Shown: positions 9,555 through 39,866 of the stretch, in pieces
How positions within the stretch are numbered: the first letter of the stretch is position 1
How the letters are laid out: the number at the start of each line of letters is the position of its first letter
Assembly (NCBI GenBank): GCA_024641335.1
Contig: JAHEDG010000024.1
Coordinates: 1 to 40,649 of the forward strand
Reading direction: 5' to 3'
Source: Candidatus Zixiibacteriota bacterium
GTDB taxonomy: Bacteria; Zixibacteria; MSB-5A5; UBA10806
Length of the DNA: 40,649 nt
Notes under the pieces: model-generated
What the model saw: the letters and a program-made list of their open reading frames with translations, nothing else
What the model was told of the DNA's origin: nothing
Database searches by the model: none
Translations under genes and position numbers: made by a program

Positions 9555-11969
9555 ATGCTAAAACTAAACCGACTGATACTATGGATGATCACACCAACTA
9601 TTCTCTTATCTATCAATACATTGGCGGCTGAAGATTATATCCATACCGTGACTACGGATATCAGCGCCATTACCTTTGACGGACATATTGCGGCCGTGGA
9701 AGACGGCGAAATGATCTCCGAACCGGGCGCTCCGGCCTTGGGATACAGAATCGTAAAACTGGTTCTGCCCCCAAACACCGCCATTACAGGGATAACCGTC
9801 GAATCGGCGAATCCGACAGAACTGGCCGTAGGCAATATCGATTTCATCAAAGGAGATATAGCCACCGGCAATTATCCTGCGGATACAGTGTCTTCCGCCA
9901 ATCCCGCGATTTTTAATTCTGATGATATTTATCCGGTCAAAAGAGCCGAGATTCTTAGCCGCGGACATTGGGGAAATATTAACCTGGTCGATCTGGCGGT
10001 TTACCCGCTGGCCTGTAAACCTCTTTCCGGCAAATTACTCTTCTACCCGGAAATCACGGTCCATATAAGCCTGAAATCATCGGTAGTTGCCAACGGGCTG
10101 GCTCCCAAAAACGACGCTTTCGCCTATGCCGCTCTCGAGCAACGGGTCGATAACGGCCTCGATCTTCCTCTGCTGGCCTCGTCATACGGCGGTGGTACAC
10201 CTACAATCGCGGGCAATATACCCACTCCCGAATATCTTATCATCACTTCCGCCGAAATCGCCCCCGGCTTTTTCCCTTTCCTCAATTGGAAAAATCAAAA
10301 AGGGATACCCGCCGATATCGTCTTTATCGAAGATATTCTGGCCATGTCCGTCGGACAGGACCCGGCCGAAAAACTGAGAAATTATCTTATCCAGGCCTAT
10401 AACGGCGGCGTGCGCTGGGTACTCCTCGGCGGCGACGAAGACGTTGTACCGATAAGATATCTCTATCCGGGCAATGTCCGCGATTATATTCCGACGCTGA
10501 ATCGTCAGCAGGTTTCCGATATGTACTACGCCGACCTGACCGGCGACTGGGATGCCGACGGCGATGGTGTCTGGGGAGAATCGTACCATGATTTGCCTGA
10601 TATTTATCCCGAGCTATATGTCGGCAGAGTTCCGGCAAGAACGGCCGAGCATGCCTCGGTTTGGGGGAATAAAGCGATTCTGTATGAGAAGAATCCGGGT
10701 AACGGCGATCCGTCATACCTGACGAAAGCCCTCTTTATCTGTGCCGATCAGATGAGAGATTACGGGCAGCATGAAGTCCTGGCCGGAATGCTCCCCGGGA
10801 ATTTTTACTACGACGCCGACCGCTTAATAGAACAGCCCAGCGGAAATACTTACGAGCCGGTCTCACCGTTAGCCTCCACGGTAATCAATGTCATGCAGGA
10901 GGGATGGGGGTTTATCTCCAATCTTAATCATGGTGATATCTCCTGGTATTCGGCGAGATCATGCGGTTATAATGCCTACGGATATTCCGGAGTATGGGGC
11001 GATATCGTCCCCTGGGGAGGATGCGGCGCCCTGAGCAATCTGACCACATATAATCAACCGTCCGTTCAATACTCCATAAGCTGCGATCTCGGAGCCTTCG
11101 ATTTCGATAAAGAGATCTTCAGACCGGCCCCATATCCGAGCCCGTACTGCTTCGCCGAATCTTTTATCCTCGAACCGGGGTCAGGTGTAGCCTTTCTGGG
11201 GAACACGCGCTGGGGATGGGTATCCCCCTCATACAACATGGAAAGAAAATTCTTTGATCATATATTCGTCGATTCAACCAGCAGGCTCTCGGTAGCCGAG
11301 GCCCTCTCGAAAATTGATTATCCCAACTATCGAGATATCGGTTATGGTCATAATCTTTTCGGCGATCCCGAGATGTCTCTATGGCTTTCAGTCGACGGCA
11401 ACCTGGTTATCGAGGGACCGACCGAATTAGACCCGAATATCTTGCAGCAGGTTCAGTATCGGGTGCTGTCCAACGGCAACCCCGTTCAAGGTGCCGCTGT
11501 CTGTATCTACAGACCGGGAGAACTGTTCGCCAGAACCGCTACCGACGCCTCCGGGTACGTTTCCTTCGAAATCGATCCCCAGGCCGATGGCTATATTATG
11601 GTGACAGCTTCCAAAATCAGATACATTCCCGATCAAAACGCTGTTGTTGTCGGAGCCCCTCTCGGTACTGACAATGAAATCCATCTGCCCTCAAAGCCGA
11701 TGGTTCATCAAAACTACCCCAATCCATTCAACTCCAATACGACCATCGAATTCAACATACCGGAAAGATCCTCGGTCGAACTCGATATTTATGATATCAG
11801 TGGACGGCTGGTCCGGAAACTCGTCTCCGGCGAATTTCCGGCAGGATCAAATCAGGTCACCTGGAACGGCGCTAATGACGCGGGCCGCGACGCGGCTTCC
11901 GGCGTCTATTTCTATAAATTTTCTACCGGGCCAACGGTACTGTTCAAACAAATGACTATGCTAAAATAG
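9555..11969 (+). CDS. Secreted gingipain-like C25 cysteine peptidase with C-terminal sorting domain
   Basis: 804 residues. An N-terminal signal peptide (hydrophobic about 7-24, cleavage likely after LAA) is followed by a gingipain-type propeptide region (about 30-215) and the C25 catalytic domain (about 225-610): EYLIITSAE, GVRWVLLGGDEDVVPIRY, YPELYVGRVPAR, the catalytic histidine in NLNHGD (His459) and the catalytic cysteine in SISCDLGAF (Cys510), ending with NLFGDPEMSLW. An Ig-like domain follows (about 615-700). The last about 85 residues (YPNPFN at 721-726 to the end KQMTMLK) match the FlgD-like / type IX secretion C-terminal signal. So this is predicted to be an exported protease. The gene stands alone with its own GGAGGGG ribosome site and is closed by a strong hairpin. 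Substrate and arginine/lysine specificity cannot be read. Confidence 0.9.
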   Translation: MLKLNRLILWMITPTILLSINTLAAEDYIHTVTTDISAITFDGHIAAVEDGEMISEPGAPALGYRIVKLVLPPNTAITGITVESANPTELAVGNIDFIKGDIATGNYPADTVSSANPAIFNSDDIYPVKRAEILSRGHWGNINLVDLAVYPLACKPLSGKLLFYPEITVHISLKSSVVANGLAPKNDAFAYAALEQRVDNGLDLPLLASSYGGGTPTIAGNIPTPEYLIITSAEIAPGFFPFLNWKNQKGIPADIVFIEDILAMSVGQDPAEKLRNYLIQAYNGGVRWVLLGGDEDVVPIRYLYPGNVRDYIPTLNRQQVSDMYYADLTGDWDADGDGVWGESYHDLPDIYPELYVGRVPARTAEHASVWGNKAILYEKNPGNGDPSYLTKALFICADQMRDYGQHEVLAGMLPGNFYYDADRLIEQPSGNTYEPVSPLASTVINVMQEGWGFISNLNHGDISWYSARSCGYNAYGYSGVWGDIVPWGGCGALSNLTTYNQPSVQYSISCDLGAFDFDKEIFRPAPYPSPYCFAESFILEPGSGVAFLGNTRWGWVSPSYNMERKFFDHIFVDSTSRLSVAEALSKIDYPNYRDIGYGHNLFGDPEMSLWLSVDGNLVIEGPTELDPNILQQVQYRVLSNGNPVQGAAVCIYRPGELFARTATDASGYVSFEIDPQADGYIMVTASKIRYIPDQNAVVVGAPLGTDNEIHLPSKPMVHQNYPNPFNSNTTIEFNIPERSSVELDIYDISGRLVRKLVSGEFPAGSNQVTWNGANDAGRDAASGVYFYKFSTGPTVLFKQMTMLK

Positions 11970-29681: not shown

Positions 29682-32339
29682 CTACCATCCCGAAAGCGAC
29701 TCCAGATTTTTGTTGAGCTTTTCTATACTCTCCTCGGTGGCCGCCTGCTTTTCCTTTTCCGAATCGATTACCTCCGACGGCGCCCGGTTCAAAAAGTCCG
29801 AATTGGCCAGCTTCTTCTTTATCCTCTCGAGATATTGCTTCTGCTTCTCCAGTTCCTTATCCAGCCGCTTGCGTTCGCTTTCCATATCGATCAAACCCTC
29901 AAGAGGAATATAAATCTCCCCTATCGATACCACGCTCGACGCCGCCAGCGGAGGCTTCTTGATATCGCTGCCGATCACCAGATTGTTGATCCTGCCCAAT
30001 ATTATCAACTGCGCCCGCTGCTCTTCCAAAATTGCCGCCGCTTTCTCATCTGATGTTTTTATCAGTACGTCCGCGGTCTTGCCCGGAGGAACATCCATCT
30101 CCGCCCTGACATTCCTTATCGCCCCGATAACCGTCTGAACCAGCTCGAAATCCTTTTCCAATTTATCATTGATAAACTTCAACGCGGGCTCCGGCCAGCC
30201 GGCATTAGAGAGAAACTCGTCCTCGGCCACGCCCGGAAGAAGATGATATATCTCCTCTGTTACAAAAGGCATAAATGGATGCAGCATCCTCAAAATCTGC
30301 ATCAGTACAAAACCGGCCACCTGACGAGCCCGATTCTTGACCTCCTCCACGGCCACACTCGCCAAACGAGGCTTGATCATCTCTAAGTACCAATCGCAAA
30401 AATCCTTCCAGATAAAATCATAAGCCGTCCTGGCCGCCGTATTGAAACGGTATCCCGATAAATAGTTATTGACCTGTCCGATTGTCTTGGCCAGCCTGGA
30501 AAGAATCCAAACGTCCGGCAGCTCGAGATCCTTAACCTCCGGAGAAATCTCTAACTTCGGTTCATAACCGTCGAAATTGGAGATTACGAAGCGAGACGCA
30601 TTCCAGATCTTATTCGCGAAATTCCGGCCAGATTCGAAACTCTTCTCCGAAATATACGGATCCTGACCTTCCGGAGTCGCTAGAATCAACGATATCCTCA
30701 ACGCGTCCGCGCCGTATTTATCTATTATCTCGATCGGATTGATGCCGTTCCCCTTCGATTTGGACATCTTCTCGCCGTCCGCGTCGCGCACCGTCCCGTG
30801 TATATAAACATCGTTGAACGGCAGCCTGCCCATAAATTCGTAAGAGGCCATGACCATCCGGGCGACCCAAAGATAAATTATCTCCGATGCCGTAAACAAA
30901 GATTTCGTCGGAAAAAATTTCTTTATTTCGGGCGTCTCATCCGGCCAGCCAAACGTCGAAAACGGCCAGAGCCATGACGAAAACCAGGTATCCAGAACAT
31001 CGGGATCCTGCTCGATATTGGCCGATCCGCATTTCCCGCAAACCTGAGGCTTTTCCCTGGCCACAGCCACCTCGGCACAATCCCTGCAATGATACGCCGG
31101 TATCCGATGACCCCACCAAAGCTGACGGGAAATGCACCAGTCACGGATATTCTCCAGCCAGTAAAGGTAAGTCTTGGACCAATGATCCGGATAAAACTTC
31201 AGCTCTCCGCTCTTAACCGCCTCTATCGCCGGCCCCGCCAACGAAGCCATCTTGACAAACCACTGCAGCGAAAGATAAGGCTCCACCACAGTATCGCACC
31301 GATAGCATACCGATACCGAAAGCTTGTAATCCTCTATCTTCTCCAAATGACCCCGGTCTTTGAGATCCTCCACTAACTTCCGACGACCCTCGTAACGGTC
31401 CAGTCCGGCGTACTTTCCGGCGTTCTCGTTCAATGACCCGTTGTCATTCAGTATGTTAATTCTCTCGAGATTATGCCTGTTGCCGATCTCAAAATCGTTG
31501 GGATCATGCGCCGGCGTTACCTTAACCGCCCCGGTTCCGAACTCCATATCAACGAAATCATCGGCGATTATCGGCAGCTCCCGATCGAGAATCGGAAGAA
31601 TAGCCGATTGGCCTACCACCTTCGCGAATCTCTTGTCCTTGGGATTCACCGCTATAGCCGTGTCGCCGAGCATCGTCTCCGGTCTGGTCGTGGCTACCGT
31701 CAGATATTCGTCCGAACCCTTGATCTTGTACTTTATAAACCACAAACGAGAATCGATATCCTCGCGCTCCAGCTCATCGTCGGAAAGCGATGTCAGACAA
31801 CGGGGACACCAGTTGATCAGACGGTTCCCCTGATATATTAAACCCTTTTCATAGAGCCTGACAAATACCTCAATTACCGCCCGGGATAAACCCTCGTCCA
31901 TCGTAAAACGGGTCCTGTCCCAGTCGCAGCTGCAGCCTATTCTCTTAAGCTGATTCAAAATCCGGTCGAATTTGTCATCTTTCCACGACCAGACCTTCTT
32001 TAAAAACTTCTCTCTGCCCAGCTTCTGACGAGAAATTCCTTCCTTGGCCAGATTCTTCTCAACCACCACTTGAGTGGCGATTCCGGCATGATCCACTCCC
32101 GGCATCCATTCCGACTCATACCCCATGGCCCGACGCCAGCGAATCATGATATCCTGCAAAGTGTTATTCAATGCATGCCCGATATGAAGAACATCGGTCA
32201 CGTTCGGAGGAGGTATGACTATGGAATACGACTTCTTATCGCTATCGATCTTCCCGTGAAATAAGCCTGCCTGCTCCCAGCGGGGATACCATAATTGCTC
32301 GACTTTCGCCGGCTCATATGCTTTTGGAATCTCTTTCAT
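29682..32339 (-). CDS. valS: Valyl-tRNA synthetase ValS
   Basis: Class I aminoacyl-tRNA synthetase charging tRNA-Val with an editing domain against threonine. 885 residues. N-terminal PPPNVTDVLHIGHA with HIGH at residues 52-55 (the usual glycine-serine before the leucine is Asp-Val here); editing domain with TTRPETMLGDTAIAV and VTPAHDPNDFEIG; KMSKS at 524-528; anticodon-binding region; and a C-terminal coiled coil of about 65 residues (SERKRLDKELEKQKQYLERI onward) characteristic of ValS. Cysteine pairs CPRC, CYRC, CRDC and CGKC suggest zinc sites. The ribosome site is weak (GAGAAG just before ATG). The leader holds a terminator-like hairpin. Confidence 0.97.
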   Translation of the reverse strand: MKEIPKAYEPAKVEQLWYPRWEQAGLFHGKIDSDKKSYSIVIPPPNVTDVLHIGHALNNTLQDIMIRWRRAMGYESEWMPGVDHAGIATQVVVEKNLAKEGISRQKLGREKFLKKVWSWKDDKFDRILNQLKRIGCSCDWDRTRFTMDEGLSRAVIEVFVRLYEKGLIYQGNRLINWCPRCLTSLSDDELEREDIDSRLWFIKYKIKGSDEYLTVATTRPETMLGDTAIAVNPKDKRFAKVVGQSAILPILDRELPIIADDFVDMEFGTGAVKVTPAHDPNDFEIGNRHNLERINILNDNGSLNENAGKYAGLDRYEGRRKLVEDLKDRGHLEKIEDYKLSVSVCYRCDTVVEPYLSLQWFVKMASLAGPAIEAVKSGELKFYPDHWSKTYLYWLENIRDWCISRQLWWGHRIPAYHCRDCAEVAVAREKPQVCGKCGSANIEQDPDVLDTWFSSWLWPFSTFGWPDETPEIKKFFPTKSLFTASEIIYLWVARMVMASYEFMGRLPFNDVYIHGTVRDADGEKMSKSKGNGINPIEIIDKYGADALRISLILATPEGQDPYISEKSFESGRNFANKIWNASRFVISNFDGYEPKLEISPEVKDLELPDVWILSRLAKTIGQVNNYLSGYRFNTAARTAYDFIWKDFCDWYLEMIKPRLASVAVEEVKNRARQVAGFVLMQILRMLHPFMPFVTEEIYHLLPGVAEDEFLSNAGWPEPALKFINDKLEKDFELVQTVIGAIRNVRAEMDVPPGKTADVLIKTSDEKAAAILEEQRAQLIILGRINNLVIGSDIKKPPLAASSVVSIGEIYIPLEGLIDMESERKRLDKELEKQKQYLERIKKKLANSDFLNRAPSEVIDSEKEKQAATEESIEKLNKNLESLSGW

Positions 32340-32569: not shown

Positions 32570-32704
32570 TCTCCCCAAACAGCCAAAATCACAAACCACT
32601 GCGAATTCAACACTCCCGGGCATTTCCAAAGTTCGATTCGCTCACCATTCCCTTGCGAAATACCAGATCATATGCCATATTATTTATCCGGAGGAGGACA
32701 TCCT

Positions 32705-33670
32705 ATGAACGACAATCGAATGGAACGACGACAGTTTATCAAACTCACCGGCAAAGCGGCCGCCCTGGCCTCTGTCTTCGGCGGGGGCAGCTATATCCTT
32801 TCACAAAACATCTATTCGCCCAAACATCAGGCAGCCGCTATTTATAAGGGAGACAGAAGCCCCGATATCGACACCGATTTCCCCGATTTAATCTCTTTAA
32901 GATCCAAAGACCATGCCGCGGCGGCGTTGGAAGCTATCGGCCTGCTAGGCGGAATCAGCCGCTTCATCGCCCGGGGAGATATTGTTACCATCAAACCGAA
33001 TATCGGATGGGATCGAAGCCCGGCCCAGGGCGCCAATACCAATCCCGATCTGGTCAGAGCTGTGGCCCTGGCATGCCTCGACGCCGGAGCGGCCAAAGTC
33101 ATGGTCACCGACGTCCCCTGCAACGACTCTCGACGGACCTTCCGACGTTCGGGAATTGACGATGCCCTGAAAGGAACAGGAGTTGAAGTCCTCCTGCCGG
33201 AAGAACATCTCTTCGTTAACGCCGATCTCGGAGGAGAAATACTGGGCGAATGGCCCGTACTAAAACCATTCCTCGAAAACGATAAATTGATAAATATGCC
33301 GATTATCAAACAACACGGCCTCTCCAAAATCACTGCCGGTATGAAAAACTGGTACGGCGTTCTCGGCGGACCGAGAAACCGACTCCACCAGGAAATAAAT
33401 CGCTCCATCGCCGATCTGGCCGATTATTTCCGACCGACGCTGATCATCGCCGACGCCACCAGAGTGCTGACCCGAAACGGACCCGCCGGAGGATCTCAAA
33501 CTGACGTCGAAACGCATGATATCGTCATTGCCTCCGCCAACCAGGTGGCCGTCGATTCATACGCCTGCCGATTCCTGAATCTCGATCCCCAAACAATAGA
33601 ATATATCAAACAAGGCGAAGCCCGCGGCCTCGGTCGAATAGACGGCTACTCTGTTCAGGAACGGATCTGA
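32705..33670 (+). CDS. Tat-exported DUF362 protein
   Basis: 321 residues from the ATG at 32705, placed six bases after a GGAGGAGGA ribosome site; an upstream in-frame start at 32672 would disrupt the leader. The N-terminus carries a twin-arginine signal, ERRQFIKLTGK with the arginines at 8-9 and a hydrophobic stretch after it, so a folded, probably cofactor-containing protein is exported. The body is DUF362: DIVTIKPNIGWD, NTNPDLVRAVALACLDAGAAKVMVTDVP (in part), IIKQHGLSKITAGMKNWYGVLG, PTLIIADATRVLTRNGPAGG and NQVAVDSYACRFL. DUF362 is of unknown function and often sits with iron-sulfur proteins. First gene of a three-gene operon; the next starts seven bases later. Confidence 0.85.
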   Translation: MNDNRMERRQFIKLTGKAAALASVFGGGSYILSQNIYSPKHQAAAIYKGDRSPDIDTDFPDLISLRSKDHAAAALEAIGLLGGISRFIARGDIVTIKPNIGWDRSPAQGANTNPDLVRAVALACLDAGAAKVMVTDVPCNDSRRTFRRSGIDDALKGTGVEVLLPEEHLFVNADLGGEILGEWPVLKPFLENDKLINMPIIKQHGLSKITAGMKNWYGVLGGPRNRLHQEINRSIADLADYFRPTLIIADATRVLTRNGPAGGSQTDVETHDIVIASANQVAVDSYACRFLNLDPQTIEYIKQGEARGLGRIDGYSVQERI

Positions 33671-33677
33671 TTCGGCC

Positions 33678-35339
33678 ATGACCTCATCCGGAAAAATATC
33701 TCCCGGCATATTAAAAGCCCGATGGCTCCGCAGAATTTCACAAACCCTCTTCCTATCGATGTTCCTCGTCCTGATCTATCTGACCGAATTTTCGTTTACC
33801 ACCTTTAAAAGCCCTGACGAAACCATCAAACCGTCGTCCTGGCTCAATCTTTTTTATAATATCGATCCGCTCTCCGGATTCGCCGCCGGCATTTCATCCG
33901 GCCTGCTTTATGGATCGCTGGCCCTGGGGTTGATAATTATCGTCGCTACTATATTCTTCGGACGGTTCTTCTGCGGCTGGATATGCCCCATGGGAACTCT
34001 CAACCAGCTTTTATCGAGCTTCTCTTCCGAAAGAGAAAGCCGCCAAGGCGCCCGGCTGATAAGAGCTAATAAATACCATCGGTACCAGGCATGGAAATAT
34101 TATATCCTCTTCGGATTGCTGGCTCTTGCGGTTTTCGGTTCCGTACAAACCGGATTGTTCGACCCCATCACCCTGGCCGCGCGATCTATCGGTATGGTCG
34201 TCATCCCGGCCCTGAACTCCGCCTTGACCGCCGTCGCTATGACCCTGTCGAATTCGTCTATAAAGATCCTGACCTGGCTGGGAACCGGAATCTTCGCAGC
34301 CGCATCCGGAACTCTGATCTACTTCAAACAGCCCCATTTCCATGGTATCTTCTGGCTCGCCCTGATATTCGGCGCCGTGATGCTCTCCAACAGAGTCTTC
34401 ACACGCTTCTGGTGCCGAGGATTATGCCCTCTCGGAGCGTTCCTCGGTCTGATCAGCAGATACTCGATTTTTGGACTATATAAAATACACAATAAATGCA
34501 CCGATTGCGGACTCTGCCTTCTGAACTGCCAGGGCGGGGACGACCCTCACGGCAATGTTGCTCACCGACGATCCGAATGTCATCTCTGTCTCAATTGCGT
34601 GGCGGTCTGTCCGGAGGATGTTCTCTCGTTCGGATTCCAGTTCGATCCCGCTGATTACAACCCGAAACCCGATCTGACTACAAGGAGAACCGTTCTGGCC
34701 TCTCTGGCCGGATTGACTGTTATGCCCATACTCCGAAGCGGTGTTATTGCCGCAAACAACCGATCATTTATCAGGCCCCCCGGATCTCTGATCGAAGACG
34801 ATTTCCTCGAACGCTGTATCCGTTGCGGGCAATGTATGAAGATCTGCCCTACCAACGCCCTCCAGCCGGCTCTGCTGGAAACCGGTTTCGAGGGTATCTT
34901 CTCCCCTTTGCTCATGCCCCGGATCGGCTATTGCGAACATTATTGCACCCTGTGCGGAGAAATATGCCCCACTGGATCTATCTTGAAACTGGAAACCGAT
35001 ACCAAGTTCGGTTCATCGGGAACCACACCAACCAAAATAGGTACCGCCTTTTTCGATAAAGGCAGATGCCTGCCCTGGGGATCCGGAGTAACCTGCATCG
35101 TTTGCGAGGAATGGTGCCCGACATCGCCCAAAGCCATATGGCTAGAAGAAGCCGAGATAATCGACCGGGACGGTAACCGCTCCAAAATAAAGCTGCCCCA
35201 TCTCGATCCGGACAAATGCACCGGTTGCGGAGCCTGTGAATACGCCTGCCCCGTTTCCGGGCAGCCCGGCATCTATATCACTTCCGCCGGAGAAACCCGG
35301 GATCCGAATAGATCACTGCTTCTAAGGAAAAGAAAATGA
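33678..35339 (+). CDS. NapH-NapG-like fused membrane polyferredoxin
   Basis: 553 residues. The first half is NapH/MauN-like: about four to five membrane segments (20-40, 68-95, 143-160, 168-190, 200-240) with two CxxxCP motifs (Cys99/103 and Cys246/250), then two ferredoxin-type clusters (Cys274/277/280/284 and 301/304/307/311). A twin-arginine-like segment RRTVLASLAGLTVMP (336-350) follows, then a NapG-like half with clusters at 380/383/386/390, 419/423/426/430, about 464/473/476/480 and 514/517/520/524. That is up to six 4Fe-4S sites. If the internal RR segment crosses the membrane, electrons could pass between cytoplasm and periplasm. Overlaps the next gene by ATGA. The redox partner is unknown. 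Confidence 0.85.
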   Translation: MTSSGKISPGILKARWLRRISQTLFLSMFLVLIYLTEFSFTTFKSPDETIKPSSWLNLFYNIDPLSGFAAGISSGLLYGSLALGLIIIVATIFFGRFFCGWICPMGTLNQLLSSFSSERESRQGARLIRANKYHRYQAWKYYILFGLLALAVFGSVQTGLFDPITLAARSIGMVVIPALNSALTAVAMTLSNSSIKILTWLGTGIFAAASGTLIYFKQPHFHGIFWLALIFGAVMLSNRVFTRFWCRGLCPLGAFLGLISRYSIFGLYKIHNKCTDCGLCLLNCQGGDDPHGNVAHRRSECHLCLNCVAVCPEDVLSFGFQFDPADYNPKPDLTTRRTVLASLAGLTVMPILRSGVIAANNRSFIRPPGSLIEDDFLERCIRCGQCMKICPTNALQPALLETGFEGIFSPLLMPRIGYCEHYCTLCGEICPTGSILKLETDTKFGSSGTTPTKIGTAFFDKGRCLPWGSGVTCIVCEEWCPTSPKAIWLEEAEIIDRDGNRSKIKLPHLDPDKCTGCGACEYACPVSGQPGIYITSAGETRDPNRSLLLRKRK

Positions 35340-35851
35340 AAAAACTGTTATTGATCCTCTGCCTGACTATTATCTCGCTGGCCGCCTGCCCCCAAAATAA
35401 AAAACAACCGCCGGAATCCGCCGTCCCCGAAACCGCCCTCCTGGCCACTCTCGGCGATTTCAAGGTCAATTCTGATATCAGAACCTATGATTCCGAATCC
35501 CTCTGGGAGTATATCGACGGTGCCGCCGATCAAATAATCCTGCTGGGATTCGACAAAATGGCCACCGCCGATTATATCAGGGACGATACCTCTTTGACTG
35601 TGGAGATATATCTCTTCCTCGCTCCCCAGGGAGCCTTTTCCATCTTCTCCGAATATTCCGATATCTCGGCCAAAGATCCCGGACTGGGCGGCGAAAGCAA
35701 AGTCGCCGACGGAGAGCTGATGTTCTATGAAGACAAATATTTCGTCTATCTAAATTGCTTCGGCGTCGCCGTCCCCGAAACATCCCTGGTGAAAATAGCC
35801 GCCTCTATAGATTCCGTCCTGATCGAAACCGGAAAACTCCTCGAAAAATAA
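35336..35851 (+). CDS. DUF6599-like lipoprotein
   Basis: 171 residues. Lipoprotein signal with LAAC lipobox (Cys18). The mature part has LWEYIDGAADQIILLGFDKM, EIYLFLAPQGAFSIFSEYS and a C-terminal YVYLNCFGV-like strand region, which I recognise as a DUF6599-type domain; function unknown. It starts in an ATGA overlap with the NapH-NapG-like gene, so its role is probably tied to that redox module at the periplasmic face. No cofactor-binding cysteines other than the lipid anchor and one internal Cys (in LNCFG). Confidence 0.75.
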   Translation: MKKLLLILCLTIISLAACPQNKKQPPESAVPETALLATLGDFKVNSDIRTYDSESLWEYIDGAADQIILLGFDKMATADYIRDDTSLTVEIYLFLAPQGAFSIFSEYSDISAKDPGLGGESKVADGELMFYEDKYFVYLNCFGVAVPETSLVKIAASIDSVLIETGKLLEK

Positions 35852-36220: not shown

Positions 36221-37453
36221 TTAAATCTCCTGCATGAAACAGGAAATCCCTTTCTTCTCGACATCGGCCTTGGCTTTCTCAGCCTTCTTTAAACCTTTCA
36301 CTTCCTTGAAAACCACAAAATACTCCTGGCCATCATACGATACTATCTTGGCCGATAATCCGAATTTCCTTAATGTGGCGGCATGCTTCTGAGCCGAGGC
36401 TTTATCCTTATAACGGGCCGCGTAAATCAGGTATTTGCGATTCGATTTATCCTCGGCCTTTTCCGTTGTCTTCTCTATCTCCGGAACAGATAATATCGGC
36501 GGCTCGGCTATCCTCTTTTCCGACGAATACTCCCTGGCATCTTTCTCGGACTGGCCGAACCTGAAAACAAACGATATCTGATGGGTGCCGCCCATCAGGC
36601 TGTTGATATTATAAGCGTAATCGAGACTATGCTCCGAAACCTGAATCCCTCCTCCGAACGAAAACCCCCCGTTGGCGTCGAATTGCTCTCCATAGTCGTA
36701 TCCCCCCCTCAAAATCAAGAGATTCTGGTAGGAATACTCCAAACCGGCCATATATGAGACATCGCCATCCAGAGGAACCGCTGTCCCAACCAAAAGGCCC
36801 AGTTCACGCCCGCCCGGATAATAGGCCGCCCCGACGTTGACCGTGGTCGGCAAAGAGGCCGTGGATGTCTCATATTTCAAACTCGGTCCGATATTCATGA
36901 CAGATATTCCCCCCAGATACCTGCCGGAACGGTACTGCAGACCGATATCTCCGGCCATGCCGTTGGCGCTGATATTATCGAGTTTCTCCGATATCCCCTT
37001 GATTCCCAGTCCTAATGATAATTCCGGGGTTATCTGACGGCCATACGAGAGGGATAAGGCCATATCGTAAGCGTCTATATTCCCCGTGGATGCATTTGAC
37101 TCCGAATACCCGGTGATATCGCCGTAGGTCAGGTATGAAAAAGATAGACCCAGCCCCCCACGGCTTCCCATAGGTATCGCCGCCCCGAAATACTCATAAC
37201 GTAAATCCTGAAACCATTCCGAATGCATACCCGATATCTGATAATCTTCGGCATAACCCAACCCCGCCGGATTATAATATGATGAGGCCGGACCGTCAGC
37301 CACCGCCGAAAATGCCCCTCCGGTAGCCGCCGATCTGGCGCTTATACCGATATTCAAAAAATCAACCGCAGTATCTCCCGCCGCCATCAAATTGGCCGAT
37401 GAGAACACTATCACTGTTCCGAAAATCACCGTAGTCTTTGTTATCGCGTTCAC
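36221..37453 (-). CDS. PorV/PorQ-like outer-membrane barrel with C-terminal SPOR domain
   Basis: 410 residues. The start is GTG at 37453, fixed by an AGGAGG ribosome site (37458-37463) four bases upstream. Signal peptide about 1-24. Residues about 28-300 look like a PorV/PorQ/UPF0164 outer-membrane barrel: DFLNIGISARSAATGGAFSA, ADGPASSYYNPAGL, alternating amphipathic strands, and a last strand ending in QISFVFRFG. A charged linker (about 301-339) leads to a SPOR-like domain (about 340-410: KYLIYAARYKDKASAQKHAA, AKIVSYDGQEYFVVF, EKKGISCFMQEI). SPOR domains bind peptidoglycan lacking stem peptides. The fusion suggests an outer-membrane protein also docked on the wall. PorV members serve type IX secretion, matching the sorting-domain cargo in this window. 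Confidence 0.8.
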   Translation of the reverse strand: MNAITKTTVIFGTVIVFSSANLMAAGDTAVDFLNIGISARSAATGGAFSAVADGPASSYYNPAGLGYAEDYQISGMHSEWFQDLRYEYFGAAIPMGSRGGLGLSFSYLTYGDITGYSESNASTGNIDAYDMALSLSYGRQITPELSLGLGIKGISEKLDNISANGMAGDIGLQYRSGRYLGGISVMNIGPSLKYETSTASLPTTVNVGAAYYPGGRELGLLVGTAVPLDGDVSYMAGLEYSYQNLLILRGGYDYGEQFDANGGFSFGGGIQVSEHSLDYAYNINSLMGGTHQISFVFRFGQSEKDAREYSSEKRIAEPPILSVPEIEKTTEKAEDKSNRKYLIYAARYKDKASAQKHAATLRKFGLSAKIVSYDGQEYFVVFKEVKGLKKAEKAKADVEKKGISCFMQEI

Positions 37454-37810: not shown

Positions 37811-39016
37811 TTAAGAGAGTTTCCCGGCCAAAAGATGTAGAAAAAGACCTACATCGGTTACGATACCCACGGCTTGCGCCGAACCGCGATCGGCCAGCTT
37901 GGTCACTACTGACGGATTTATATCCACGCAGATCGTGCGTACCCGCGACGGCAGCATATTGCCGGTGGCGATGGAATGAAGCATACTCGATAGCATCAAA
38001 ACGATATCGGCGTCTCTAACCTGTTTCGAATAGGCGGCCTGGGCGGCAATCATATCGTTGATCGTCTCCGGCAGGGGGCCGTCATCACGCAACGACCCGG
38101 CCAGCGCATAAGGCACATTCGATTTATGAAGCTGGTACATTATTCCGCTTTTGAGCGCCCGTTCGGCGATCATATTTTTAATACCGCCATATTTGTAAAC
38201 CGCGTTAATCGCCCGCATGTGGTTTTTATGCCCCTCCTCCACCGGCTTGCCGGTTTTGGTATCGACCCCTAACGAGGTGCCGAACAGGGCCTGCTCGATA
38301 TCGTGGACGGCCAGCGCGTTGCCGGAAAGAAGCCCCTGCACATATCCCCCCTTGATAATCGAGCAGAGCGATTCCGAACCGCCCGTATGCACGACTACCG
38401 GCCCGGCGACAACGATTGTCCGGTATTTTTTCGATTTGAGCATGGCGGCCACCTCGCTGACCGCTAACTCGACCTTCTTCTCGGAGGAAACCTCGCCGGA
38501 CATGAATTCGAAAACCGATCTTCCCCGTTCTCTGAATTGCGGGGTGACCCGTATGCCCTTTAGGCCGACAACGATATTCATCCCCTTCTTCAGATCGCGG
38601 ATTTTCACACAGCGGGCGGAGCGGTCGTTGACAACGATCGCGGCGTCCATGCGCTGGTCTTTGACTTTGGTCCACGAGCCGTTCAGGCGGACCTCGGTGG
38701 CGTGATTAGTGGTCGAGTAGAAATCGTCGGGAGCGCAGGAGTTTTTCGGAGCCGGTTTTGTCGCGATAGGGGAATCCTCTTTTATCACGCATCCGTGCAG
38801 GTGAAGCTGCGAGATGATATGCTCCAAAAGCATCGGGGTGGAGGCGCTGACCTCGATTGTGGTTGTGGTCGGATCGGTGTTGGTCTGCCCCATCTCGAAC
38901 GACTTGATATGGAACTGCCCGCCGGAGCGGATAATCAGATCGAGGATGGACGACATGACGCCGGAATCTACCAGATGCCCCTCGGCGTAGACTTCCCGGG
39001 TGTATTTCTTGGCCAT
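37811..39016 (-). CDS. TIGR00300 / LOR-SDH family protein (possible ornithine cyclodeaminase)
   Basis: 401 residues. The N-terminal about 95 residues (YAEGHLVDSGVMSSILDLI, FEMGQTNTDPTTTTIEV) match the LOR/SDH bifunctional-enzyme conserved region; the rest (SCAPDDFYSTTNH, VVAGPVVVHTGGSESL, YVQGLLSGNALAVHDIE, GHKNHMRAINAVYKYGG, LSSMLHSIATGNMLP, VCVDINPSVVTKLADRG-like) is the TIGR00300 core with a nucleotide-binding fold. Archaeal and cyanobacterial relatives have been linked to ornithine-to-proline conversion; that role here is inference. Cytoplasmic, no signal peptide. The ATG at 39016 has no evident ribosome site. Stands alone, with about 360 bases downstream to the PorV gene. Confidence 0.75.
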   Translation of the reverse strand: MAKKYTREVYAEGHLVDSGVMSSILDLIIRSGGQFHIKSFEMGQTNTDPTTTTIEVSASTPMLLEHIISQLHLHGCVIKEDSPIATKPAPKNSCAPDDFYSTTNHATEVRLNGSWTKVKDQRMDAAIVVNDRSARCVKIRDLKKGMNIVVGLKGIRVTPQFRERGRSVFEFMSGEVSSEKKVELAVSEVAAMLKSKKYRTIVVAGPVVVHTGGSESLCSIIKGGYVQGLLSGNALAVHDIEQALFGTSLGVDTKTGKPVEEGHKNHMRAINAVYKYGGIKNMIAERALKSGIMYQLHKSNVPYALAGSLRDDGPLPETINDMIAAQAAYSKQVRDADIVLMLSSMLHSIATGNMLPSRVRTICVDINPSVVTKLADRGSAQAVGIVTDVGLFLHLLAGKLS

Positions 39017-39272: not shown

Positions 39273-39866
39273 ATGAAAAAACGGACTAAATTAAACATCG
39301 CCGGTATCGTATTGTTGCTTATTCTATTCTCCTGCGCCCGGCAAACACCCCCGGCTCGATTTACAGCGATAATCGCGATTTCAGAGAACGATTCGACTGT
39401 TTTAGAAGGGGTTATCTTTGTCGACGGCTGGCGCTACCGAATGAATCTGACCTTAGAGGGGGAGGCAATCGGGATCATTGTCGATAATAAATCGGACTGG
39501 ACCCGGCTGCTGATGGCGAATAATAAAACCTGCTCATATATACATAAAGACGATCCTGAGAATATCGCCAGCGATCCGTTTTTAGGATTGGAATTTCTCA
39601 AAGCGAAATATGGCGGTAGGCGGATCGGTAACGCGACGATCGGCGGATATGATTGTATCGAATATGAGATCAAGGATGACGGCAGGAAGCTGATGGCTTA
39701 TTGGGAGGCGGCAGCTTTGCGTTTCCCATTGAGGATAATCGAGCACGGGTCAACCGATATCGTGACGGAGTTGTCCGATATTATCGTAGGCAATATAGAC
39801 GATTCAATCTTCGGGGTCCCCGGCAATTACACTATCCTCGCCCGGAGGTGGACGGCAGGAAGGTAG
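39273..39866 (+). CDS. Small predicted lipoprotein of unknown family
   Basis: 197 residues. N-terminal basic-hydrophobic signal with an LFSC lipobox (Cys21). The mature part is beta-rich: EGVIFVDGWRYRMNLTLEG, GIIVDNKSDWTRLLMANNKTC (in part), NATIGGYDCIEYEIKD, KLMAYWEAAALRFPLRII, FGVPGNYTILARR. The layout of a metabolite/lipid-binding half-barrel resembles LolA-like or DUF4412-type outer-membrane lipoproteins (measure-then-convert loops such as YDCIEYEIKDDGRKLMAYWE), but I cannot assign it. The ATG follows GAGGG at nine bases. The stop codon is embedded in a perfect palindrome. Confidence 0.75.
   Translation: MKKRTKLNIAGIVLLLILFSCARQTPPARFTAIIAISENDSTVLEGVIFVDGWRYRMNLTLEGEAIGIIVDNKSDWTRLLMANNKTCSYIHKDDPENIASDPFLGLEFLKAKYGGRRIGNATIGGYDCIEYEIKDDGRKLMAYWEAAALRFPLRIIEHGSTDIVTELSDIIVGNIDDSIFGVPGNYTILARRWTAGR

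Follow-up and report, generated by a model that had tools for sequence, protein, structure and literature searches.

The window analyzed here, a stretch of 40,649 nt from a Candidatus Zixiibacteriota bacterium (GCA_024641335.1, contig JAHEDG010000024.1, positions 1–40,649), contained three intact plus-strand ORFs at 32705–33670, 33678–35339, and 35336–35851. These encoded a DUF362 protein (321 aa), a NapH-NapG fusion (553 aa), and a DUF6599 lipoprotein (171 aa), respectively. A preliminary description of the locus had called the three genes tightly packed, and the spacing agreed: +7 nt between the DUF362 and fusion genes, and -4 nt (an overlap) between the fusion and DUF6599 genes. A strong Shine-Dalgarno sequence, GGAGGAGG, preceded the DUF362 gene (32690–32697, plus strand); a promoter scan returned matches at chance level, and no promoter is claimed. 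The trio was considered an isolated unit because minus-strand genes lay on both flanks: valS (29682–32339), named from its sequence alone without a model search, and the gene for a PorV/PorQ-family outer-membrane protein (36221–37453). Elsewhere in the window, the product of 9555–11969 (plus strand) was a Gingipain-type C25 peptidase bearing a Por secretion tail; this peptidase and the PorV/PorQ-type protein hint at a type IX-like secretion system. A lone DUF4412 lipoprotein gene (39273–39866, plus strand) was situated between minus-strand genes.

The N-terminal NapH half of the fusion (33678–35339, plus strand) matched TIGR02163 (E 8e-22), and the C-terminal NapG half matched PRK09476 (E 8e-29). 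Two CX3CP motifs (C99–P104, 33972–33989; C246–P251, 34413–34430) and two [4Fe-4S] motifs (C274–C284 and C301–C311; 34497–34610) were found in the NapH half. The NapG half contained four [4Fe-4S] motifs (C380–390, C419–430, C464–480, and C514–524; 34815–35249), bringing the cysteine count to the six cluster sites that the preliminary description had given as an upper figure. Across 22 divergent fusion members having 46–69% identity to the window protein, neither the six cluster motifs nor the two CX3CP motifs varied. The internal twin-arginine-like segment that had been pointed out, TTRRTVLASLAGLTVMPILRSG from residue 334, coincided with a TM segment of low hydrophobicity, standing directly before the weakly hydrophobic last TM helix in a Kyte-Doolittle scan. 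The RR and this segment (residues 336–358; 34683–34751, plus strand) are predicted to form a Tat-inserted last TM helix, and aligned relatives of the fusion also had an RR-type internal segment.

Tat dependence of the fifth helix has been experimentally shown for a NapH-NapG fusion from the delta-proteobacterium MLMS-1 (PMC5449189). Judging by its motifs, the window fusion is a member of this known protein type, the Sec/Tat dual-inserted polyferredoxins, within which Tat-dependent translocation was shown for the MLMS-1 homologue only. The arrangement of CX3CP and [4Fe-4S] motifs in both halves and the RR ahead of the last TM helix are shared with NapGH and the MLMS-1 polyferredoxin; the partnership with DUF362 and DUF6599, at times as a fusion to DUF6599, sets the window-type fusion apart from them. 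Unlike NapGH, it had no adjoining nap genes and scored far under both curated NCBIfam cut-offs (NapG, 100.6 of 269 bits; NapH/MauN, 78 of 213 bits). A known Nap system was rejected on these low scores. The earlier remark that the operon lacks a quinone partner was an understatement, since the NapH half is itself a homologue of a quinol-dehydrogenase membrane subunit.

The DUF362 protein (32705–33670, plus strand) matched Pfam PF04015 (E 7e-49; 167 bits against a gathering score of 24) and is a predicted Tat substrate. Its twin-arginine signal segment, ERRQFIKLTGKAAALASVFGGG... (residues 7–45; 32723–32839, plus strand), included ERRQFIK near the N-terminus, and RRx[FL] was conserved in orthologues; Tat assignments throughout this work are motif-based. 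A direct sequence search of DUF362 against the PDB gave no significant match. An AlphaFold2 model built from 40 relatives had a mean pLDDT of 90.2, and its 19 best PDB matches, all taken as LarA-family, ranged from E 1.3e-7 to 1.0e-5, with the next match at 1.2e-3. Eighteen of these were named LarA, malate racemases, or single-His LarA homologues; the nineteenth, the uncharacterized Thermotoga structure 4nar, scored among the LarA entries and presumably belongs to the same family. The match was a partial alignment of a predicted model (TM about 0.45 by query length). As modelled, DUF362 has the fold of LarA, the nickel-pincer racemase. The kinship itself was already known, as Pfam clan CL0471 holds both DUF362 and LarA (PMC11770544); the passages of that paper on the kinship do not mention the conserved His and Lys or the exported form of DUF362.

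In a hhalign profile alignment, weak when taken alone (E 0.0014), H204 and K214 of DUF362 fell on the His and Lys of the LarA H-x9-K motif. Family conservation extended to a third residue (H204...K214...H228; 33314–33388, plus strand): a His 10 residues from KN was present in 106 of 109 DUF362 relatives, and a further His 12–14 residues beyond was likewise present in 106 of 109. The alignment identifies H204 and K214 as the probable equivalents of L. plantarum LarA H174 and K184, with an identical spacing of 10; H228 is a candidate equivalent of LarA H200. We take K184 to be the lysine that tethers the nickel-pincer nucleotide (NPN). A catalytic role is stated for LarA H174 in the relevant passage of PMC11770544. 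No evident counterpart of H108, LarA's second catalytic His, was seen in this weak alignment; single-His LarA homologues exist (PMC12611868). DUF362 thus resembles the LarA superfamily (DUF2088, clan CL0471) in fold and in the spacing of its H...K motif, whereas it is shorter (about 320 aa, against about 425 aa), has a Tat signal, and occurs also in genomes without LarB/LarC.

The DUF6599 lipoprotein (35336–35851, plus strand), present as a single copy in the window's genome, matched PF20244 (E 4.6e-15; 56.1 bits against a gathering score of 27) and contained the lipobox LAAC (C18; 35378–35389, plus strand). By sequence, all three products are envelope proteins, in keeping with the exported DUF362 and envelope lipoprotein of the preliminary description. 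A direct sequence search of DUF6599 against the PDB gave no significant match. A structure model (pLDDT 87.5) had weak PDB matches (TM1622, PknH extracellular domain, and TiME; best E 5e-3), and no function is claimed for DUF6599 from its fold because these matches were weak. Neither DUF362 nor DUF6599 contained Cys clusters or a haem motif, so that no redox cofactor was readable from either sequence. In two genomes (L053, 775 aa; L057, 717 aa), DUF6599 was fused to the polyferredoxin C-terminus through an Ala/Pro-rich linker; DUF6599 directly follows the NapG domain in these proteins, and therefore both probably lie on the same side of the membrane.

Among 84,980 species genomes scanned, 361 relatives of the fusion were found, 80 of which were taken with their flanks as loci. 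By record title, the 80 loci came from Zixibacteria, Acidobacteria, Gemmatimonadota, Calditrichota, Nitrospinota, and a few others; the trio was co-conserved in many uncultured bacteria, under records labelled Zixibacteria, Acidobacteria, Gemmatimonadota, and Calditrichota. Of the 80 loci, 74 encoded DUF362 within 6 kb of the fusion, 52 of them on the same strand with a gap of less than 400 nt. DUF6599 was within 6 kb of the fusion, or fused to it, in 53 of 80 loci, many contigs being cut short; non-adjacency was often unobservable because MAG contigs are short. Adjacency of DUF6599 is not obligatory, since in the closest relatives (L002 and L003) it was found elsewhere in the genome, apart from the DUF362-fusion pair. 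The window's phylum was represented by 128 genomes, 78 with the fusion (E 1e-60) and 95 with DUF6599. Among 78 near-complete Zixibacteria, DUF6599 was present in 37/37 genomes with a full-length fusion and in 21/41 without (p = 1.4e-7; this and the other Fisher tests treat genomes as independent and ignore shared ancestry, most events falling within a few families). The three families co-occurred across genomes; a lack of co-occurrence, which would have contradicted the preliminary description, was sought and not seen. The literature searched contained no paper treating the DUF362-fusion-DUF6599 trio and no pathway assigned to it. The fusion type has been published (PMC5449189), and DUF362 has, as modelled, the LarA fold.

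The view of the trio as self-contained was not supported. Its wider neighborhood included radical-SAM enzymes and aldo-keto reductases with Tat signals, a SpeE-like membrane protein, an additional DUF362, and a secreted Memo-AMMECR1 fusion, as well as larE-larC-larB in one acidobacterial group. Recurrent neighbors among the 80 loci were SpeE-like proteins (27), AmmeMemoRadiSam radical-SAM enzymes (20), aldo-keto reductases (20), and Memo-AMMECR1 fusions (16). Many of the neighboring aldo-keto reductases had a twin-arginine N-terminus. It is improbable that the polyferredoxin serves an unlinked terminal reductase of the periplasm as a quinol dehydrogenase of the ordinary NapGH type, with DUF362 and DUF6599 as assembly factors. 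The homology of its two halves to NapH and NapG would suit that role, but its scores were well under both curated cut-offs, and the 80 loci had no conserved adjoining terminal reductase, the recurrent neighbors being DUF362, DUF6599, radical SAM, and aldo-keto reductase.

Radical-SAM copies adjoining the trio had a twin-arginine start (e.g., MDRRMFIRCMGCGAVAAA...NACA), with one copy cut by a contig end, and the Memo-AMMECR1 fusions near the trio started with a hydrophobic signal peptide. Like AmmeMemoRadiSam (TIGR04335/04336/04337), the set comprised a radical-SAM enzyme with an intact CX3CX2C and the Memo and AMMECR1 domains. It differed from classic AmmeMemoRadiSam, which has a signal-less start, in that the module-linked copies had signal peptides of Tat or Sec type and in that Memo and AMMECR1 formed one fused protein. 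Thirty-four radical-SAM copies were sampled from fusion-positive Zixibacteria, the window's genome included; 33 had RR and one had KR. Thirty classic high-scoring copies had no Tat signal and started just ahead of the first conserved cysteines; four flagged RR matches in classic copies were low-complexity, far upstream, had no following hydrophobic segment, and were probably ahead of the true start. No description of an exported radical-SAM enzyme was found in the literature searched, though absence there is not proof.

The Tat-type radical SAM was found in 44 of 48 near-complete Zixibacteria with any fusion and in 3 of 30 without (p = 1.5e-13), the Tat-type class being assigned by score and RR verified in the sampled copies. 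Within the acidobacterial set, any TIGR04337 was present in 70 of 71 fusion-positive genomes and in 83 of 176 others (p = 4e-17). Tat-type copies also occurred outside the fusion-positive genomes (G009, G025, G084, G155, and G377). Occallatibacter savannae (L079) had the trio without any TIGR04337, and G316 had the fusion without TIGR04337. In the window's genome, a Tat-type copy on another contig (G000:C3:11924–13096; L087:7925–9097) matched TIGR04337 at 380 bits (cut-off 220), with CX3CX2C and the N-terminal RR signal FIDRRRFLRV; a second, signal-less copy was found at L088:7661–8653. The Tat-type copy was followed by a SpeE-like multi-spanning membrane protein (L087:9064–11148) with no Pfam match, which could be a partner that handles S-adenosylmethionine (SAM).

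In Zixibacteria as well as in acidobacterial loci, a second DUF362 adjoined the Tat-type radical SAM. This neighbor, with the signal-peptide Memo-AMMECR1 fusion alongside, would fit a maturation device, in which a protein or lipid of the periplasm is modified by the polyferredoxin, DUF6599, and the exported AmmeMemoRadiSam, with DUF362 as the modified client or as a scaffold; so would the low-potential electron donor that radical-SAM enzymes require. We regard such a device as unlikely: the trio in O. savannae and the fusion in G316 occur without TIGR04337, and we know of no documented case of SAM outside the cytoplasm.

The LarA fold, the aligned H204 and K214 conserved in 106/109 relatives, and the shared Pfam clan would also be expected if DUF362 were an exported NPN enzyme. 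LarB, LarE, and LarC would then make NPN in the cytoplasm, the cofactor would be tethered to K214, Tat would export the folded holoenzyme, and the polyferredoxin would maintain the redox state of the NPN cofactor or of the enzyme's product. In support, larE-larC-larB lay directly upstream of the fusion in the acidobacterial loci L061, L072, L073, and L079, as did larB in L066. LarB and LarC were both present in the window's own genome, and of 18 fusion-positive, largely acidobacterial genomes that were sampled by locus, 17 had LarC. Two fusion-positive genomes had LarC without any LarA match, which does not point to DUF362 because NPN serves other clients. One such client, an NPN-dependent ornithine cyclodeaminase, was encoded in the window 2 kb from the trio (37811–39016, minus strand; TIGR00300, 514 bits against a cut-off of 411). 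The lack of an evident H108 counterpart also speaks against NPN chemistry. Among the 78 near-complete Zixibacteria, however, the fusion was independent of LarC (22/37 with the fusion and 26/41 without; p = 0.82) and likewise of LarB, and 15 of the 37 fusion-positive genomes had neither LarB nor LarC. NPN dependence of DUF362 was rejected as the best explanation by this co-occurrence result and the existence of other NPN clients; NPN use by DUF362 is not claimed for the same reasons, and we give it only a small chance.

Further LarA-related genes were observed. In the window's genome, larB-larC were followed by an EtfA-like gene, named from its sequence alone (L089:4972–7898; G000:C52). Near-complete Zixibacteria such as G004, G007, G008, G010, and G015, in which neither LarC nor LarB scored above its cut-off, encoded PF09861 LarA-domain proteins (100–120 bits); these LarA homologues may not use NPN. 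Common in the sampled acidobacteria was a divergent family of LarA-like proteins (about 450 aa; only 29–35 bits to PF09861; L163 [G129:C6], L164, and L165).

The explanation we prefer, to which we assign an even chance, is that the trio makes up the core of a conserved module for electron delivery in the envelope, serving Tat-exported redox enzymes. The electron-transfer role proposed in the preliminary description is the natural reading of a membrane polyferredoxin; we infer the path, direction, donor, and substrate of the relay as follows. Sec would insert the four NapH-type helices and Tat the last helix, which would place the four NapG-type clusters outside. At the inner side of the membrane, menaquinol or a donor in the cytoplasm would reduce the polyferredoxin, and the electrons would travel via the six [4Fe-4S] clusters to the periplasm, where DUF6599 would be kept beside the external cluster domain by its lipid anchor. 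The direction of flow is not readable from sequence, and outward delivery is probable. The electron users would be folded Tat-exported enzymes, including the LarA-fold DUF362 of the operon and, in most polyferredoxin genomes, the exported AmmeMemoRadiSam radical SAM or a Tat-signal aldo-keto reductase. The case for DUF362 as a recipient is evenly balanced, and its role as an acceptor is a guess because no redox cofactor is readable from its sequence; a radical-SAM recipient is possible but rather doubtful. A hub is favored over a single dedicated partner because several Tat-exported types (DUF362, radical SAM, and aldo-keto reductase) adjoin one relay. In favor of the electron-delivery module are the linkage of the trio in the 80 loci, the DUF6599 fusions of L053 and L057, the invariant cluster and CX3CP motifs, the Tat dependence shown for the MLMS-1 fusion, the co-occurrence counts, and the RR of the sampled radical-SAM copies. 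Set against it are the separate position of DUF6599 in L002 and L003, the trio of O. savannae, which has no TIGR04337, and the location of the radical SAM of the window's genome on another contig.

Overall, the analysis links DUF362 and DUF6599, in several phyla, to a single membrane electron relay, assigns a modelled fold and candidate active site to DUF362, and brings to light a radical-SAM subclass that carries export signals. A tentative extension, which we consider somewhat unlikely, is radical-SAM chemistry beyond the cytoplasmic membrane, in which Tat-exported AmmeMemoRadiSam and secreted Memo-AMMECR1 would act with Tat-exported LarA-fold DUF362 on low-potential electrons delivered outward by the Sec/Tat-inserted polyferredoxin. 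If radical-SAM enzymes do act outside the membrane, the supply of both SAM and a strong reductant to the periplasm would need explaining; for the reductant, though not for SAM, the polyferredoxin would offer a testable answer.
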